Below, one piece after another: positions 769 through 14,403 of a stretch of 28,770 bases of DNA. Under the pieces are notes generated by a model. That model had not been told where the DNA came from and did no database searches. It saw nothing but the letters and a program-made list of their open reading frames with translations. A program made the position numbers and the translations under genes. The stretch lies in IMG/VR virus record IMGVR_UViG_3300009128_000105, positions 1 to 28,770 of that record, one strand, 5' to 3'. This DNA is from a virus. How positions within the stretch are numbered: the stretch's first letter is position 1; every line of letters starts with the position of its first letter.

Positions 769-1164
769 ATGCGACACGTCGTAGTGAATAAAGTCCTCAT
801 GGAGGCGCTAACCCGCCTCCGTGTTATCGGGGCCGACGGCTCCGAGGTGATCGCGGTCGGGAAGATCCACGCTCAGTCGGATGTTAGGCCGGGAGATCAT
901 CTCCACGCCATCGGGATCAGGACGAGGGCCGCGAGCCTCTTCGATCGGGCGACCGACTACAACGTCGGCGGGATCGTCCCGAAGGAGGTCCCGAATATGG
1001 TCGCCGCCCTTGAAGCTAACGAAGGGGATCACCTCGAGGTCGAGATCTCCGAGGTCTGCCGGGTCCGCCTGATCGACGGAAAGATCCGAGAGATAGAGGA
1101 ACTTCAGCGGCGTCTCGATCAACTAAAGGCCGACGTGAACGATCGGGCCGGGGGGCTCTTCTGA
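769..1164 (+). CDS. Hypothetical early protein, 131 aa
   Basis: ATG at 769 follows a strong GGAAGGAGAG Shine-Dalgarno site and a GC hairpin. The 131-residue product has a beta-rich first half (VNKVLMEALTRLRVIGADGS, then alternating hydrophobic strands) and a charged helical C-terminus (about residues 108-127, KIREIEELQRRLDQLKADV) that looks like a short coiled coil. No catalytic motif seen. Its TGA shares the A of the next ATG (TGATG at 1162-1166), so it is coupled to the nuclease gene and could belong to the recombination module. Family not recognised. Confidence 0.75.
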   Translation: MRHVVVNKVLMEALTRLRVIGADGSEVIAVGKIHAQSDVRPGDHLHAIGIRTRAASLFDRATDYNVGGIVPKEVPNMVAALEANEGDHLEVEISEVCRVRLIDGKIREIEELQRRLDQLKADVNDRAGGLF

Positions 1165-2372
1165 TGCAGATCAGATACGTTATCGCCCGCCCGGAGCTCC
1201 CGAAGGAGCCCAGGCGAACGACGAAGGGGCTCTCGACGGCGAAGGCCCAGGACACCACCGCCGCGCTGATGCAAGTCGCCGCGCTGGAGGAGGTCGCCGC
1301 GCTCGCAAAGAAGCGCGACAGCGCTGTATCCTGCGCCGCGGAGTTCCTAGAAAGCGCCACGCTAGCGAAAGCCGCCGAAAGGGCGGAGGTGGTGCTCTCC
1401 GGTGCTATTGAGAGACTCGACGCCACGATCGAGCACCTTCGGGAGCGCGACCTCGAAGCCTGGGCCGTCCGGCTCGACATCTTCTCCGGGGCCGAGCGAC
1501 AGCTTGCCGCGCTCCGGGACGCCTCCGCCATCACCGGCGCGATGAAGGCCACCGGTGACCGCCCGGCTCGGAACCCGTGGGCCTGCGACCGCTGCGACTG
1601 GGCTCCGCTCTGCGAGGGCGACCCCACGGCCGACAACGTGGCGAACTGGTACGGGCTCGGCCGGGCTAAGCCGCCGTCGCCGCTCTGGATCGAGCCGACC
1701 TGCGGGGGCTCCATGCGCAAGATGAAGCGGTCTGGCCGACACGGGGCGGTCGTATCGCCCTCCGAGATGCGGACCTTCAGCTCGTGCCCTCGCCGCTGGC
1801 GCCTGGAGTACGTAGAGCGCCTGCGGCCAACCGATCGGGACTGGGCGCGGATGGGCGCTCGGATCAAGGGCGTGATCACGCACGCCTTCTTCGAGGCGAT
1901 TCTCCGGGCCTGGACGCCCGGAGACACCTTCGCCCTTTCCTGGACCATGGAGGGGCCTGAGGGCCACGCTCGGGCGGTCGTCGATCAGTACTACACCGCC
2001 GACGTGATGAGCGCGGTTGACCGCTGCGTCGCCGATCTCCACCCGGACGACTGGGAGGGGCGAGAGGAGCTCCGAGCCGTCATCCCGGCCTGCGCCAAGG
2101 CTGCCTACGACGCCGCGGCGCTCGCCCTTGAGGGGGCGACGGAAGTGATCGCCGTCGAGGAGGCCCGCGCCCTGAAGCTCGACGGAGTGAACCGCTGGGT
2201 CTTCGGGACCGCTGACGCCGTGATCCGGCTTGGGGACCGGCTCGCCCTCGTCGAGCTGAAAACGACGAGCTCAAAACAGCTTGCCACGATGGCCGAAAAA
2301 TATAGAAACAACCCTGCGGTGGATCTCTACGCCGCGATGCTAACGATGGGCCGGAAAGCCCGGAAAGGATGA
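1164..2372 (+). CDS. PD-(D/E)XK nuclease, RecB/Cas4-like, with permuted domain order
   Basis: 402 aa. Family knowledge: Fe-S RecB/Cas4-type exonucleases run Cys1, a GxxxH helix, Asp, ExK, QxxxY, then C-x2-C-x5-C near the C-terminus. Here residues 199-389 give the first part in order: SPSEMRTFSSCPRRW (C208), GARIKGVITH (H240), GTADAVI (D351), ELKTT (E364, K366) and a QxxxY-like NPAVDLY with Gln replaced by A385. The protein stops soon after (402). The missing C-terminal part is instead at the N-terminus: a strand (IRYVIARPELP), a helical stretch and CDRCDWAPLC (C141, C144, C150). Joining C-terminus to N-terminus would restore the usual order, so it reads as a natural circular permutation joined by a linker at about 151-195. 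It likely trims DNA ends for recombination with the adjacent Sak4-like and ssDNA-binding proteins. The nuclease call is firm; the permutation is my reading of motif order. Confidence 0.85.
   Translation: MQIRYVIARPELPKEPRRTTKGLSTAKAQDTTAALMQVAALEEVAALAKKRDSAVSCAAEFLESATLAKAAERAEVVLSGAIERLDATIEHLRERDLEAWAVRLDIFSGAERQLAALRDASAITGAMKATGDRPARNPWACDRCDWAPLCEGDPTADNVANWYGLGRAKPPSPLWIEPTCGGSMRKMKRSGRHGAVVSPSEMRTFSSCPRRWRLEYVERLRPTDRDWARMGARIKGVITHAFFEAILRAWTPGDTFALSWTMEGPEGHARAVVDQYYTADVMSAVDRCVADLHPDDWEGREELRAVIPACAKAAYDAAALALEGATEVIAVEEARALKLDGVNRWVFGTADAVIRLGDRLALVELKTTSSKQLATMAEKYRNNPAVDLYAAMLTMGRKARKG
2348..2361 (+). promoter_or_regulatory. Hairpin before the Sak4-like ATPase start
   Basis: GGGC-CGGAAA-GCCC forms a four-base-pair stem inside the last codons of the nuclease gene, immediately followed by GGAAAGGA and the next start. 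Loop and position resemble the hairpins at 4255, 6751 and 23497. Confidence 0.35.
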
Positions 2373-2377
2373 GAGAG

Positions 2378-3160
2378 ATGCTGAAAACCATAAACTACAA
2401 CGAGCCGAGCTCGACTGGGCTGATGCTCCTGATATACGGCCCGCCAGGGATCGGGAAAAGCTCCATCGGAGCGGGACTCGCCAAGGCTTGCGAGGACGTT
2501 GAAAAGCGCGCCGTGATCGGCGACACGGAGCTCGGCTCGGCCGCGGCCCTTCGCCGGGCTGGCTGCTCGAAGAGCGCCCTCCTGGACCTCACGGTCGCCG
2601 GCGGTGCCGCCTCCGCTCGGGCTCTGGGCGGCCACGTCCTGAACGATCCGACCTGCGGGCTCTACGTGCTCGACACGCTAACGGAGCTCGCCGTGACGGT
2701 GCTCCGGGATGCGATGGGCGAGCGGGACATGCCCGAAATGAGGGATTACGGGAAACGCAAGGTGGGCGTGATGCAGATCATTCGCTCGGCCCGTGACGTC
2801 GCCGCCTCGGGGCGCCCGGTCCTGATCACGGCCCAGCAAGGCACCCACGAGGTTGAGGGCCTGCAAAACGTCCACGTCCCCGAGGTGCCGCGCAACGACC
2901 GACAGGATCTCGTCTCGCAGATGGACGCCGTCGCCCGCCTTCGGATCGCCACGCCCGCCGACGCTGAGGGGCTTGGGATGGAGCCCGGCGACCGTTACCT
3001 CGACTTCAGGACGGACCGCCGGCACCTGACGAAGATGCGAGACCCTAAGCCGTTCCTCGCCCACGGCCTCCTCCCAACAGGGATCTGGCCGCTTAACTCC
3101 GATGATTCACTCGCGCGGCTCTTCGCCGCAATCTCACAAACCCAGACGAAAGGAATTTGA
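2378..3160 (+). CDS. Sak4-like RecA-fold ATPase (single-strand annealing/recombination)
   Basis: 260 aa from ATG 2378. GGAAAGG (2362-2368) gives good spacing to this ATG; an in-frame ATG at 2369 overlaps the nuclease stop but has the same purines directly against it. Walker A is GPPGIGKSS (residues 21-29), followed by VIGDTELGS (a Sak4-like second strand), a Walker B region YVLDTLTEL (D99) and a sensor-like strand RPVLITAQQ. Size and order fit phage Sak4-type ATPases, a compact RecA-like group that works with an ssDNA-binding protein in annealing or recombination. Its position between a RecB-like nuclease and a DUF669-like gene supports this. A generic AAA ATPase is the alternative. Confidence 0.85.
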   Translation: MLKTINYNEPSSTGLMLLIYGPPGIGKSSIGAGLAKACEDVEKRAVIGDTELGSAAALRRAGCSKSALLDLTVAGGAASARALGGHVLNDPTCGLYVLDTLTELAVTVLRDAMGERDMPEMRDYGKRKVGVMQIIRSARDVAASGRPVLITAQQGTHEVEGLQNVHVPEVPRNDRQDLVSQMDAVARLRIATPADAEGLGMEPGDRYLDFRTDRRHLTKMRDPKPFLAHGLLPTGIWPLNSDDSLARLFAAISQTQTKGI

Positions 3161-3162
3161 TC

Positions 3163-3708
3163 ATGGGTATTCGCGACAATTATAAAAGCACGAACGACGG
3201 CAACAGCCGAGAGTTCGACCTCCTCCCTGCGGGTTACTACACCTGCGAGCTTACCGCCGCCGTGGAGCGGGAACGCCCCTGGAACGGCGAGACAGAAACG
3301 AGCCTAACCTTCGAGGTCGTGGAGGGGGCGCACGCAAGCCGGCGAATCTTCTGCCAGGCTCCCCAGCGGGAATCTATGGCTTGGTGGATGCGGATGATCT
3401 GGGACGGGCTCGGGCTGAAGGGCGCACCATGGGACGGGCTCCCCGAGGACTGCCCCGACTCCGAGATCTGGGCGAACCTCACCCAGACGGCGGCCCAGTC
3501 CATCGGGGCGCGATGTAAGGTCAGGCTTGCCCATCGGAACTACGACGGGAAGGACGGCACGGAGAAGACCTCGGCCGACGTGAAGGCTATCGCTCCGCTG
3601 CCTGACGCTTGCGCGGCCTTCACGGCGAAGGCGGTCAACCCCTACGCTGAGCAGGCTGCAACCGCTCCAGGCTACGGAACGCAGGCTGGAAACGAGCTCC
3701 CGTTCTAG
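3163..3708 (+). CDS. DUF669-like single-stranded DNA-binding protein
   Basis: 181 aa. ATG 3163 is chosen because AAAGGA (3149-3154) lies eight bases upstream; an in-frame TTG at 3157 is less likely. The start MGIRDNYKST, the strand-rich region FDLLPAGYYTCELTAAV, the central TSLTFEVVEG strand and the disordered C-terminus ending in Pro-Phe are typical of the phage DUF669 group, thought to bind ssDNA, and of SSB-like proteins with an acidic or Pro-Phe tail. Its place directly after the Sak4-like gene is the usual one. The family call rests on resemblance and synteny. Confidence 0.65.
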   Translation: MGIRDNYKSTNDGNSREFDLLPAGYYTCELTAAVERERPWNGETETSLTFEVVEGAHASRRIFCQAPQRESMAWWMRMIWDGLGLKGAPWDGLPEDCPDSEIWANLTQTAAQSIGARCKVRLAHRNYDGKDGTEKTSADVKAIAPLPDACAAFTAKAVNPYAEQAATAPGYGTQAGNELPF

Positions 3709-3709
3709 G

Positions 3710-4243
3710 ATGCAAATTCTCGGAATAGATCCGGGCTTCGCTTCGATCGGTTGGGGCCTCGTCGAATTCAGTTCGACGGGGTCCCGGCTGCTCGACTGCG
3801 GGGTCATCCGAACGACACGCGACAGCGCCCAAAAACGGAGCGAGGACAACGCCGAGAGGTGCGCCCGCATCGCCGTAGCCCTCCGCCCTCTCATTACGAG
3901 CGAGACGGACATTATTGCCATCGAGGCCCAGAGCTGGACCCGGCGACACGCCGCTGATACCGGGGTCGCGATGACCTGGGGCGTGGTGTCCACGGTCGCG
4001 GCATGGGCGGAGCTGCCCCTGATCCACGTCCGACCGAGGGAGGTCAAACAACGGATGAAGGGACGCCAGAGCGCGACCAAGGCCGAGATCATCGCGGCCA
4101 TCGAGGATGAGGTCGCCGCCGCGGAGCTCCTGCTCGACGGGATCCCGAAGACACGCCGGGACCACGCCGCCGACGCCATCGCCTGCGCTCTCGTCGTTCG
4201 CGATGGACCCCTTGCGCAAATTTTGGCACGACGAGGACTGTGA
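3710..4243 (+). CDS. RuvC-like Holliday junction resolvase
   Basis: 177 aa, starting one base after the previous stop. The RNase H-fold resolvase signature is clear: MQILGIDPG (D7), IIAIEAQ (E72), and the C-terminal HAADAIACAL (H152, D155), matching the D/E/HxxD catalytic set of RuvC. Length is close to cellular RuvC (about 170 aa). It would cleave four-way or branched junctions formed during phage recombination and replication, resolving DNA before packaging. It lies in the recombination/replication cluster upstream of the helicase. Confidence 0.9.
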   Translation: MQILGIDPGFASIGWGLVEFSSTGSRLLDCGVIRTTRDSAQKRSEDNAERCARIAVALRPLITSETDIIAIEAQSWTRRHAADTGVAMTWGVVSTVAAWAELPLIHVRPREVKQRMKGRQSATKAEIIAAIEDEVAAAELLLDGIPKTRRDHAADAIACALVVRDGPLAQILARRGL

Positions 4244-4284: not shown

Positions 4285-5568
4285 ATGACCACGACAGAGA
4301 GAGACCCCAGCGAGCTTATTGAGCGGGCGTTCCTCGGGGCGATCCTCCTGGAGTTCGACCCGGAGACAGCGGCCGAGCAGGTCGCCAGGCTTAGGCCCCG
4401 AGACTTCGGCCACATCACCAACCGGAATCTTTTCGAGGTTATTTCCGGGGCCGTCTCCGAGGGGGCTCCGACACACGGGGTCTCCATCCTGACGAGGGCC
4501 GCGGACGCTGGGGCCATCATCTCATGCGGAGGCCCTGACGGTATTCAAGGGGTTATGGACTGGGCGCTCAACGCTCAGGCGACATCCGAGCAAGCGGCCG
4601 ACGCCGTCGTCAAGCAGGCGCACCGGAGGGATTTGGCCAAGGCTGCGCAGATAGCTCTAGACGTCGCAGAGGGCGGCGCGAGCATGGAGACGAGCACCGC
4701 GCAGCTTCGCCACATCCTCAACGTCCACGAGGAGAGGGCGAGGAAGGACGACGACCACTCGGTCCTCGCCTCCAAGGCCCTCTTTGACCTCATCGTCACG
4801 GACCCCGTCCCGTCTTATGGGGTCGGCCTGAGGGCAACCGACGACATCCTGGGCGGCTTCTCGCCGGGGAGGCTCTACGTCGTAGGGGCTCGCACGGGCG
4901 AGGGCAAAACAACCTCCGCGGTGTTCATGATGGAACAGCTCATGCGACGCCAAGGTGGCCGGGGGCTCTTCGTATCATGCGAGATGATCCCCGCAGAGAT
5001 GGGCAAAAAGTTCGCGTCCGTGGCATCGAACCGGGATGTCGCCGGGGAGCTCTCAAGGGCGAGCGACGAGGGCACCAGAGCCGCCATTATCGGGCAGAGC
5101 GTTATCGCTGACGAACTCTTTGACTCGCTTCTCCTGGACTACGCCCGGGACATGCGGAGGGTGACAGCGGAGGCGCTGCGCCTGAAGGCTGAGCCCGGGG
5201 GCCTGCGCTATGTCGTGGTAGACTATATCCAGGCGATGACGACTGGAGAGTACGAGAGCAGGACTCAGGACGTCGGGGCCGTCTCGCGGGCCTGCAAGCG
5301 GCTAGCGACCGAGCACGGGCTTGTCGTTATCGCGGCGAGCCAGCTCAACCGAAGCTCCGCCGGGGACAAGCCGAGGCGTCCGGTCCTGTCGGACCTCAGG
5401 GACTCGGGCGAGATCGAGCAGGACGCCGACGCCGTAATCCTACTCCACCGGGACGGCGAGGACGCCACGACGCTTACCATGGACGTCGCCAAAAATCGCT
5501 GGGGCCTGATGGGCTCGGCAAAAACAAAAGTCGTCTGGGAGACTGGGCGCTTCGGGGAATGGAGATGA
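4285..5568 (+). CDS. DnaB-like replicative helicase
   Basis: 427 aa, ATG after AAAGGA. An N-terminal DnaB-type domain (about 8-115; ERAFLGAILLEFDPE, then RPRDFGHITNRNLFEVI) is followed by a linker and a RecA-like motor domain from about 175. Visible motifs: Walker A GARTGEGKTT (201-210), Walker B VVVDYIQ (D313), SQLNRS (352-357) and DLRDSGEIEQDADAVILLHR, all characteristic of hexameric DnaB-family helicases. It would unwind DNA 5' to 3' at the phage fork. No primase or DNA polymerase is seen in this window, so these come from elsewhere in the genome or from the host. No intein or frameshift. Confidence 0.95.
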   Translation: MTTTERDPSELIERAFLGAILLEFDPETAAEQVARLRPRDFGHITNRNLFEVISGAVSEGAPTHGVSILTRAADAGAIISCGGPDGIQGVMDWALNAQATSEQAADAVVKQAHRRDLAKAAQIALDVAEGGASMETSTAQLRHILNVHEERARKDDDHSVLASKALFDLIVTDPVPSYGVGLRATDDILGGFSPGRLYVVGARTGEGKTTSAVFMMEQLMRRQGGRGLFVSCEMIPAEMGKKFASVASNRDVAGELSRASDEGTRAAIIGQSVIADELFDSLLLDYARDMRRVTAEALRLKAEPGGLRYVVVDYIQAMTTGEYESRTQDVGAVSRACKRLATEHGLVVIAASQLNRSSAGDKPRRPVLSDLRDSGEIEQDADAVILLHRDGEDATTLTMDVAKNRWGLMGSAKTKVVWETGRFGEWR

Positions 5569-11115: not shown

Positions 11116-11456
11116 CGTGGCATGTCCATCCGCTCAAGGCGGGTTTCAATGCGCTCAAGGAGGAGCTGCTGGCGGCTCTGCGTCTCCACGAGCTGCGCGA
11201 GAAGGCTCTTTGAGGAGTAGATCTTTTTAGCCCCGTCGGGCTCGCTCGCTCCGATAATCCCGTGGGCCTCTACGATCTTCGCCGCGATTCGCCCGACCGG
11301 CTCTCCGCTCCAGGCGCAGCCACTCGCCGAGGTGGAGGGTGTCTGCTCGTCCCCCCGGAGCGTCTTCACGCCGCTGATAACGATCGCCACGAGTTCCTTC
11401 ACGATGAAAATCAAAGCTCCAATTTGAAGGGTTGCCATCGGGTCCATACTATCCAT
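11112..11456 (-). CDS. Membrane-anchored coiled-coil protein in the lysis group, 114 aa
   Basis: Start taken at ATG 11456 (AGGA seven bases upstream); ATGs three and six residues later are possible. Residues about 8-30 (ATLQIGALIFIVKELVAIVI) form a membrane helix, followed by a linker and a C-terminal charged helix (SLLAQLVETQSRQQLLLERI and on) that looks like a coiled coil. This layout would fit a second holin, an antiholin or a spanin-type protein; the position directly upstream of the endolysin supports a lysis role. Exact type not determined. Confidence 0.6.
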   Translation of the reverse strand: MDSMDPMATLQIGALIFIVKELVAIVISGVKTLRGDEQTPSTSASGCAWSGEPVGRIAAKIVEAHGIIGASEPDGAKKIYSSKSLLAQLVETQSRQQLLLERIETRLERMDMPR

Positions 11457-14403
11457 CTCGCTGTCCTGTTCTTCCGCCGGAGAATTCCCCGGCCACGATG
11501 TCAAAATCTTGATCGGCCATGATCTGCGAGTCGAAGATATCACCTTTCGCAGCCAGAAACACGGGTGTCTGGATCGAGACTGTCACGACGACCAAAGCGC
11601 CGCCGAACCCGGGGGCGAGCCCGTACCGATCGCTTGTTATCACGGCCCCGTTTTTGCGGAAGCTGAGGGCTGCCGTGGTGATGGGGCTCACGAGGGGCTT
11701 GTTCGACTCGATCTCCGCCCGGAGGGCGAACTGGTAGAACCCATCGGCGGGGGCCACGAAGTCGCCAGCTCCGAGCGCGTAGTTCTGCCCGTGGTCGTAA
11801 AGCTCTGAGTCCGGGACGAAGTCGAAGGTTCCGATCGTTTTATTTTGGGCGACGGTGATCGACGCGAAGAATCCCCCATAGAGGAGATCAAGTCGGACAT
11901 GGTCAAGAGTAATAACCCCGGCCCCGGCGATCTTCCCGACACGAACACGCACAAAGCGAGCGGAGCTCAGCGCCTCGAACGTCCCGCGGGTCACCTCGAA
12001 GACGCCAGCGGCCCCGACCGTCGCTGAGGCCACGATGACAGGCGATCCGAGGGAGGTTCTCGCGGCGTCGAACTGCTCGACGGTCGCGGCCATTTGGTCG
12101 GCTGCGTTCGAGCCTGTCCACTCGATGCGGGCCTCGTAGGCCCTTGAACCGAAGACGGGGATAAGCTCAGAGGTAACGATAGCGGAATTATTTTGAAGAA
12201 GGATCGCCCGGCTCCCGCTCTGCTGGCCCGTGTCGGTGAACCAGACGTCTCCGGCGATCCCGTAGGTGGGAGCCCCCCAGCCGTTAGGAGGGCTGACGAC
12301 GGGGTCTAGGTGGAGCTCGAAGCCGCCGTTCGAAACGTCGGAACCGTGGGCCGCGCTCATCGCATCGGTGAAGCGGGAGGCTGCCTCAGCGACGCCGACC
12401 ACGAAGCGTGAACCAGCCTGCGAACGGGCGTCCTCCGCAGAGAGCGCCGGCGGCTGGGCTCGCCCGGTGCGGGCCTCGCGCTCGAAGTGACTATGCCAGC
12501 CGCCCGAGGGGATCGTTTTCGTCGTGATCGAAGTCTTCGCTCGGCCGCCCCGAAAGGTGTGCGAGATGGAATAAACCGCGCCGAAGTGAGTTGTGTCGAA
12601 GTGACGGCCGTCAGGGGCGAAACGGAGCACGTCGCCTAGTTCGATCTCCCAGAGCGAGGCCATAGCGCCAGAAAGGTGAACGTCCGGGTTCGCGAGGTCG
12701 GCCAGGAGAGCGTCGGCCATCGCTTGCGCCTCGGCGGGCGTGTCGATGTTTGACGAGCTGCTTTCAGCGATCTCCATGAACCGCGTCCCGTAAGCCGCGA
12801 TCGAGCCGGCGTTGCTGACGGTGTAGCTATTCCGCGGATAGACGGGATCATCGTTCTGATCCCGGCCGATTTCTGGCTGCGTGGCGTCACTGTAGGCGAC
12901 CCGTATTTTGTTTCGGACCTTGGAGCGGTTTTTTTTCACGCCGCCGAGGGCCTGGTAGTCTGTGGGCTCGATGGCCCCGTCAACTCGGGTGCGGTTGCGC
13001 TCGGGGTCGTAGAGCGTCAGACGGAAGCCCTGGGTGAGCCCGTCCCAACGATAACCAACGAGCCAGCCGAGTTGAGTCGCTAAGGCTTTTAGTGCGGCGA
13101 AGGTAGGCTCCCTGCGCTGGGAAAATGGGCCGATGATCCAGCCCGGAGAAACTGGTGTGTAGAGCGCCGGAGGTGCCACCATGTTGTCGGCGAGGATCGA
13201 GCTCATAGTGGTTTCGACCGGGTTCGTCGTGCCGACGTTGTAGTCCCGTGTCTCCTCGATATAGGCGTCCACAAGCTCGCCGCCGAGATCGCGGGCCTTG
13301 ATCGTGATCAAGTCCGAGCCCCAGTCGATCGAGTCGATCGCACCGACGAAGAGCGCCTGCGGCGTCAGACCTCGCTGCGCGTAGATGATCAGTTCAGCAC
13401 CGAAGGAAAGGAGCTCCGCGAAGCTCGTCGTGTCCGGGCCTGGGTTCGTCGGACTGGGTAGAGGGTCCTGGTTCAGCGGGCTCGCCGTCATGCCGGGGGC
13501 GAGGCTCACGCCGTAGATCGAGCGACGGAGACGGAGCTGCGCGCTCTGCGTCCCTTGGTCAACGCTCGCGGAGATCTGAGCATCGACGAGCCAGTCCTCG
13601 CCCCGAAGGTCGGAGAGGTCCACGGCGGACGCGATCCATGGGGGCTTGATCGTCACTGAGAGCGAAACGTCGGCCGGTGCGCCGTTAGGGGTGACCCAGC
13701 CCATACCTCTTCGCCAGTCGGCGCGAGGTTCGGCGCTGGCGGCTGCGGAGGTGCGGACCGAGGCCGAGCAGATAGCGCCCTCTTTGAATTTTGAGTTCTC
13801 GCCGTCGAAAAGCTGCCAAAGAGCGCTCGCCCCACCAGAGCTCGTCGCCAGGCCGAGCCACGTTCCCGCTGGGCTTCCGTTGAGGTAGAGCGTCACGTCG
13901 TAGTCCACGCCGTTAAAGCCCTTCACGACCGTGATTAATTGCCACTTCCCGAAGGCAAGCTTCGCTGTGCTCACACCGCTGACCCAGGCCCCCCCAGCGT
14001 CCCGCCAGCCCCAGACCGGGAAGAGGTCCGGCCCCTGGATGGCGATGTCGAGGAGCTTGTTGTCGGCCGGTATGGCGACTCCGGTTCCGCCGTAGGCGAG
14101 CAGGCTCACGGTCCCGACTGGAACGTCGTCGAGGCGGACCCAGACGCTCGCCGTCCAGGAGCCGGCCATGGATGCGGCGTCAGCTCCGGGGGCGCTAACG
14201 AAGTCCACGAAGGGATCAGCCCCAATCTCGACACGCTGCCCGATCAGGCCGGAGGCCCATGACGGGGCAGAGGCCGCCATAAGGTGCCGCCCGCCGACGT
14301 GATCCTGGACGACAGAGCCGGAGCCGAAGTCGCAGCCCCAGAGCGCCAGGGTGTCGGCTTGGACCGAGGGGTGGAGGCCCTGCTCAGCGTTCGGTGTCCT
14401 CAT
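11449..14403 (-). CDS. Large multidomain tail protein (LamG head, tail-hub-like centre, C1q-like end)
   Basis: 984 aa. Residues about 20-235 form a LamG domain (SWTASVWVRLDD, GKWQLITVVKGFNG, VTLYLNGSPAGTW). About 240-640 look like a tail hub or Tal/gp44-type module (ITIKARDLGGELVDAYIEET, FAALKALATQLGWLVGYRWD, ELGDVLRFAPDGR). About 690-850 resemble a carbohydrate-binding jelly roll (NGGFELHLDP, ARFVRVRVGK). The last about 130 residues recall a C1q-like trimerising head (GDFVAPADGFYQFALRAEIE, VFLAAKGDIFDSQ). It would sit at the tail tip as the receptor-binding or adhesion device. Domain limits are rough. Starts on an ATGA overlap with 14400-15203. Confidence 0.8.
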   Translation of the reverse strand: MRTPNAEQGLHPSVQADTLALWGCDFGSGSVVQDHVGGRHLMAASAPSWASGLIGQRVEIGADPFVDFVSAPGADAASMAGSWTASVWVRLDDVPVGTVSLLAYGGTGVAIPADNKLLDIAIQGPDLFPVWGWRDAGGAWVSGVSTAKLAFGKWQLITVVKGFNGVDYDVTLYLNGSPAGTWLGLATSSGGASALWQLFDGENSKFKEGAICSASVRTSAAASAEPRADWRRGMGWVTPNGAPADVSLSVTIKPPWIASAVDLSDLRGEDWLVDAQISASVDQGTQSAQLRLRRSIYGVSLAPGMTASPLNQDPLPSPTNPGPDTTSFAELLSFGAELIIYAQRGLTPQALFVGAIDSIDWGSDLITIKARDLGGELVDAYIEETRDYNVGTTNPVETTMSSILADNMVAPPALYTPVSPGWIIGPFSQRREPTFAALKALATQLGWLVGYRWDGLTQGFRLTLYDPERNRTRVDGAIEPTDYQALGGVKKNRSKVRNKIRVAYSDATQPEIGRDQNDDPVYPRNSYTVSNAGSIAAYGTRFMEIAESSSSNIDTPAEAQAMADALLADLANPDVHLSGAMASLWEIELGDVLRFAPDGRHFDTTHFGAVYSISHTFRGGRAKTSITTKTIPSGGWHSHFEREARTGRAQPPALSAEDARSQAGSRFVVGVAEAASRFTDAMSAAHGSDVSNGGFELHLDPVVSPPNGWGAPTYGIAGDVWFTDTGQQSGSRAILLQNNSAIVTSELIPVFGSRAYEARIEWTGSNAADQMAATVEQFDAARTSLGSPVIVASATVGAAGVFEVTRGTFEALSSARFVRVRVGKIAGAGVITLDHVRLDLLYGGFFASITVAQNKTIGTFDFVPDSELYDHGQNYALGAGDFVAPADGFYQFALRAEIESNKPLVSPITTAALSFRKNGAVITSDRYGLAPGFGGALVVVTVSIQTPVFLAAKGDIFDSQIMADQDFDIVAGEFSGGRTGQRDG

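Follow-up and report, generated by a model that had tools for sequence, protein, structure and literature searches.

Gene order at the locus

The window, that is, the whole stretch of DNA analysed, corresponds to an entire IMG/VR virus record, 28,770 bases long. It carries a nuclease-Sak4-SSB-RuvC-DnaB gene module, of which the permuted nuclease described here is the first gene. The start of the nuclease ORF overlaps the stop of the preceding gene (TGATG), and its own stop overlaps the start codon of the Sak4-like gene (ATGA). The features are listed below.

1164–2372, plus strand: gene of a PD-(D/E)XK, Fe-S type exonuclease with permuted order (intact ORF, 402 aa and stop; order repeated in the related contigs L002, L003, and L005)
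1164–1712, plus strand: N-half, aa 1–183, corresponding to the canonical C-terminal module (HMM and HHalign against 75 canonical C-modules)
1584–1613, plus strand: C-x2-C-x5-C motif, codons 141–150 (Cys found in every permuted sequence aligned and in 75/75 canonical proteins)
1614–1784, plus strand: linker, aa 151–207, between the former C-terminus and the former N-terminus (judged by canonical tail and leader lengths)
1713–2369, plus strand: C-half, aa 184–402, corresponding to the canonical N-terminal module (PDDEXK_1 match at residues 197–399, E 4.3e-14; HMM and HHalign)
2367–2369, plus strand: codon of G402, the last residue (equivalent to the glycine invariant in 75/75 canonical proteins, just before the last core strand)
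2369–3160, plus strand: Sak4-like ssDNA annealing ATPase (phrog_124, E 7e-20; AAA_24, E 1.5e-8)
3157–3708, plus strand: SSB-like protein with the C-terminal tip GNELPF (phrog_378, E 1.4e-6)
3710–4243, plus strand: RuvC-like Holliday junction resolvase (PF02075, E 1.1e-14)
4285–5568, plus strand: DnaB-like replicative helicase (PF03796, E 3.7e-45)

The N-half of the nuclease contains the last core beta strand, a P-x2-P...G-LS-AK-DTT segment, helices, the C141/C144/C150 motif (Cys2–4 of a presumed Fe-S cluster), and part of the linker. The C-half contains Cys1 (C208), H240, E332, D351, E364-x-K366, and Y389. An earlier sequence-only reading had placed the intact frame, the four Cys, H240, D351, E364-x-K366, and the segment around Y389 at these positions, and all were recovered there.

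Approximately 37 extra Ala/Glu-rich residues, distributed over three alignment gaps within aa 33–82 (1254–1440), were found in the window nuclease and are missing from its relatives; the short direct repeats D5 and D8 lie near these insertions. The GNELPF tip of the SSB-like protein (3157–3708) resembles SSB tips that recruit partners, and the corresponding tip was NGRPW in both L002 (3797–4432) and L003 (4362–5000). Elsewhere in the window, a 43-nt direct repeat (84%; 319–361 and 531–573) spans the starts of two consecutive small ORFs, and a 984-aa tail protein with a laminin-G/ConA-like lectin domain (PF13385), possibly receptor-binding, is encoded on the minus strand (11449–14403).

Module order and its conservation

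As a direct query, the window protein retrieved no relative from IMG/VR, GTDB genomes, INPHARED phages, or PDB. Relatives were reached using the neighboring Sak4 gene as query and then an alignment of permuted proteins. Three IMG/VR contigs from three other metagenomes (L002, L003, and L005) showed the same module order and the same protein ends, with 58% identity to the window protein, so the order noted in the sequence-only reading does recur in other phages. The nuclease genes of L003 and L005 were identical, leaving two distinct relative sequences. Residues C141, C144, C150, C208, H240, D351, E364, K366, and Y389 were invariant between the window and the relatives, and all of these proteins stop at an equivalent position and carry no additional Cys cluster at the C-terminus. 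The dN/dS ratio between L002 and L003 was 0.12 (0.06 for the N-half and 0.18 for the C-half); thus, both halves are under purifying selection. In L003, the series of Sak4, SSB-like, RuvC-like, and DnaB-like genes, identified from translations, was also present, with small ORFs between them.

In both L002 and L003, the permuted start is immediately preceded by a Shine-Dalgarno-like AAAGGA. Ahead of this ribosome-binding-like site, L003 has a perfect inverted repeat at approximately 2480–2505 (GCCCCGACC-CTTGC-GGTCGGGGC), which is absent from L002; the boundary on the upstream side is therefore mosaic. When IMG/VR was scanned further with an alignment of one half or the other, the same contigs came back and, besides these, only L111, which was rejected as a different PD-(D/E)XK protein. 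The phage matches H1, H3, and H64 were rejected as other RecB-type nucleases or chance matches.

The Pfam profile PDDEXK_1 (PF12705) matched the window protein with 53.5 bits (E 4.3e-14; curated cut-off, 22 bits). In the native order, residues 197–399 covered only profile positions 2–175 of 247 (the first 70%). The sequence-only reading had proposed that joining the C-terminal end to the N-terminus would restore the canonical order; when the N-half was placed behind the C-half in this way, the match reached the end of the profile (2–247 of 247) and the score increased to 60.8 bits. A canonical set was built from 12 phage exonucleases (INPHARED) and 80 loci (IMG/VR), which gave 75 usable canonical-order proteins. 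Against the HMM of this family, back-permutation increased the scores of the relatives from 40–41 to 54–55 bits and that of the window protein from 23 to 35 bits, and control sequences, in which the C-half was followed by a shuffled N-half, scored 17–20 bits.

For a crossed test, the canonical family was split at the glycine preceding the last core strand, and separate HMMs were made for the N-module and the C-module. The N-half matched the canonical C-module HMM with 23.6 and 21.8 bits in the relatives and 10.9 bits in the window (best shuffled N-half, 8.5 bits overall and 6.4 bits for the window); the window's own signal is just these 10.9 bits, and the relatives contribute most of the N-half signal. 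The C-half matched the canonical N-module HMM with 21.8–23.8 bits (best shuffle, 9.1 bits). On the wrong module HMM, each half scored below zero or gave no score. The same pairing was obtained with HHalign, in which the probability was 92.3% for the N-half with the C-module, 95.7% for the C-half with the N-module, and 0.3–0.4% for the wrong pairs. The separate profile searches that the earlier reading had suggested therefore led each half to the opposite canonical module and to that module only. At the level of single sequences, the L002 N-half was 29% identical to the C-module of the Pseudomonas phage Lebethron exonuclease, with Y, R, P-x2-P, G, S, DTT, RN, and C-x2-C-x5-C aligned between the two.

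Because the module order is reversed, we describe the protein as a permuted variant of the phage Cas4-family exonuclease rather than as an ordinary member. We give a probability of roughly 0.85 to the reading that the product of ORF 1164–2372 is a phage exonuclease of the Cas4-family/RecB-like (PF12705) type that has undergone natural circular permutation. The crossed HMM and HHalign results, the joints described below, and the same-order relatives all support natural circular permutation of an Fe-S PD-(D/E)XK nuclease, the central proposal of the sequence-only reading.

Predicted fold, catalytic residues, and role

AF2 gave a poor model from the four permuted sequences alone (pLDDT 41). When unchanged fragments of canonical homologues were added to the alignment, the model improved to a mean pLDDT of 74.7 and a pTM of 0.70, with values of approximately 90 in the N-terminal strand (residues 2–8) and values below 50 at almost all positions of residues 133–193, which include the Cys motif and hence the part that is predicted to lie beside C208. 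The order of elements in this model was strand, helices, strand, helix, and then helices, three strands, and helices. In a Foldseek search of PDB, the top matches were AdnA, AddA, and AddB chains, with AdnA as the best (prob 0.96, E 0.027, TM 0.29); these matches are weak because a sequential alignment cannot follow a permutation. In BFVD, the 365-aa viral protein A0A516LBA7 matched the model over its full length and in sequence order (437 columns, E 2.3e-18, TM 0.62/0.67, 24% identity), and the PD-(D/E)XK nucleases below it in the list were partial matches with E of approximately 1e-3. From this collinearity only, we infer that A0A516LBA7 is probably permuted as well. A second BFVD entry, A0A516L0S8 (152 aa), gave a partial match (E 5.8e-6, 30% identity); this short protein may represent a fragment or an independently encoded half, and would then bear on the origin of the permutation.

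H240, D351, E364, and K366 aligned with the canonical catalytic residues, and C208, C141, C144, and C150 supply all four Cys of Fe-S nucleases, each of them invariant. The sequence-only reading had described a QxxxY-like segment near the C-terminus. Its Tyr (Y389) is kept in the permuted members, but the Gln, although invariant in 75/75 canonical enzymes, is absent from every permuted member, and the enzyme may therefore have changed or lost its activity. A protein that still folds but has impaired catalysis or a new use, assisting Sak4 structurally, by binding DNA, or as a regulator instead of acting as a nuclease, would also account for the loss of this Gln and of several positions conserved in more than 75% of canonical proteins, and inactivated viral derivatives of Cas4 are known, such as the TTV1 nucleocapsid protein (PMC5704561). 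We consider this unlikely, given that H240, D351, E364, K366, Y389, and the four Cys are invariant across lineages that are only 58% identical, and that the canonical family conserves the His in 71/75, the Asp in 75/75, and the Lys in 75/75 proteins.

The gene context suggests a role for an active permuted nuclease. Canonical counterparts directly precede a Sak4/AAA gene in most phages examined; Sak4 and its SSB form a single-strand annealing system, in which SSB stimulates Sak4 annealing (phage HK620; PMC5928155), and Cas4 is a 5′-3′ exonuclease with a four-Cys Fe-S cluster (PMC3466216). By analogy with these systems, the most likely function of the permuted enzyme is resection of DNA ends ahead of annealing by Sak4, and the ssDNA produced would be passed to the adjacent Sak4 annealing protein and SSB.

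Joints, origin, and known systems

Both joints were exact or nearly so. The last residue, G402, aligned with the glycine invariant in 75/75 canonical proteins, and M1 takes the next position, which is usually Val. When the ends were joined, the spacing between the motif Tyr and the last-strand Tyr was 18 residues (18–20 in 68/73 canonical proteins). From Cys4 to Cys1, the other joint was 57–58 residues long (58 in the window), and the canonical tail plus leader had a median of 64 and a range of 38–125. By these lengths, practically nothing was lost at either joint. The minimal core topology of the superfamily is alpha-beta-beta-beta-alpha-beta, and the cut lies inside it, converting it to beta-alpha-beta-beta-beta-alpha. 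Thus, the rearranged module order of the sequence-only reading stands, with the correction that the breakpoint is within the minimal core, before the last beta strand, and does not simply separate the core from a Cys appendix.

The ancestor would have had the canonical order of Cys1, H, D, ExK, Y helix, last core strand, and Cys2–4. In the path we propose, the new break fell after the Y helix and before the last beta strand of the core, and the old ends of this enzyme were joined by the linker of approximately 57 residues. The route would most likely have been a head-to-tail duplication, after which a new start and a new stop arose; this, or a duplication by recombination, would explain the exact joints. 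Tandem duplication and trimming is plausible because the linker length equals that of the canonical tail and leader. The product would refold to an unchanged shape, with the N-terminal strand slotting into the sheet and the N-half Cys meeting Cys1 to bind one Fe-S cluster together. No second copy of either module was found in an HMM scan of the available sequence. A search with the canonical alignment A4 also found no further copies, a result that proves little, since it missed the permuted gene itself.

A chimera made from two Cas4-like nuclease genes, with the 3′ half of one placed in front of the 5′ half of the other, is the less likely origin and, in our view, an improbable one. The best canonical relatives of the two halves did differ (Lebethron, L025, and L030 for the N-half; L051, Shrew, and L074 for the C-half), but these differences lie within weak scores, and a joint that is exact to the residue (18 against mostly 18–20), together with a linker equal to tail plus leader, is as expected for a gene joined to itself. 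The very long stem of the permuted clade, 3.45 changes per column, could also be taken as a sign of fusion; with this stem and its deviant composition the clade was left unplaced, and the stem is too long for the tree to decide the origin.

A protein of two domains, in which a truncated nuclease is preceded by a zinc domain unrelated to it, is very improbable: the N-half alone had neither a Pfam nor a PHROG match, but HMM, HHalign, and pairwise alignment all matched it to the canonical nuclease C-module, and only to that, and no zinc domain of the kind weighed in the sequence-only reading was found. An assembly or frameshift artefact has a negligible probability, for although the window record comes from a single virus contig, the same swap was present at 58% identity in three other metagenomes, with intact frames under purifying selection, as expected for a genuine conserved rearrangement.

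It is uncommon for a natural circular permutation to place the break within the catalytic core of an enzyme. With its Cys and metal-binding residues kept, the protein is a natural test of how an Fe-S staple holds the two ends of the fold. Order-dependent profiles match the catalytic half only, so that such proteins look truncated and their Cys-bearing half goes unannotated, a blind spot of this type of annotation. Permutants may exist elsewhere in the PD-(D/E)XK superfamily. We lean toward a family of functional Fe-S RecB/Cas4-type permutants with termini inside the core, spread across distant phages and including the window, L002/L003, and A0A516LBA7 lineages. Such a family would show that both the core sheet and the Fe-S staple tolerate re-threading without loss of any of the four Cys or of the metal-binding residues. 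In the literature searched, which covers few subscription papers, no permuted Cas4/RecB-type nuclease had been reported, in agreement with the sequence-only reading, which knew of none.

Among known systems, Cas4, AddB, and Dna2 Fe-S nucleases bind one cluster through four Cys, the first ahead of the RecB-type core and the other three behind it (PMC3466216). Their Cys2–4 are C-terminal to the core, whereas those of the permuted protein are N-terminal, with metal binding predicted. AdnA, AddA, and AddB chains are the best, though weak, matches of its model among solved structures, and A0A516LBA7 is alike over the full length in sequential order, its probable permutation being read from that collinearity alone. 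As in the phage HK620 module, for which SSB stimulation of Sak4 is known, the Sak4 gene adjoins the SSB gene; unlike in HK620, the permuted nuclease comes first. The phage Cas4-family exonuclease (PF12705; phrog_69/phrog_1218; e.g., Pseudomonas phage Lebethron XPB67147.1) shares with the permuted protein both modules, the four Cys, the H/D/(D/E)xK/Tyr residues, the G-LS-AK-DTT segment, and the place directly before a Sak4/AAA gene; it differs in its unpermuted order and in keeping the QxxxY Gln, and the permuted protein has diverged far from it in sequence.
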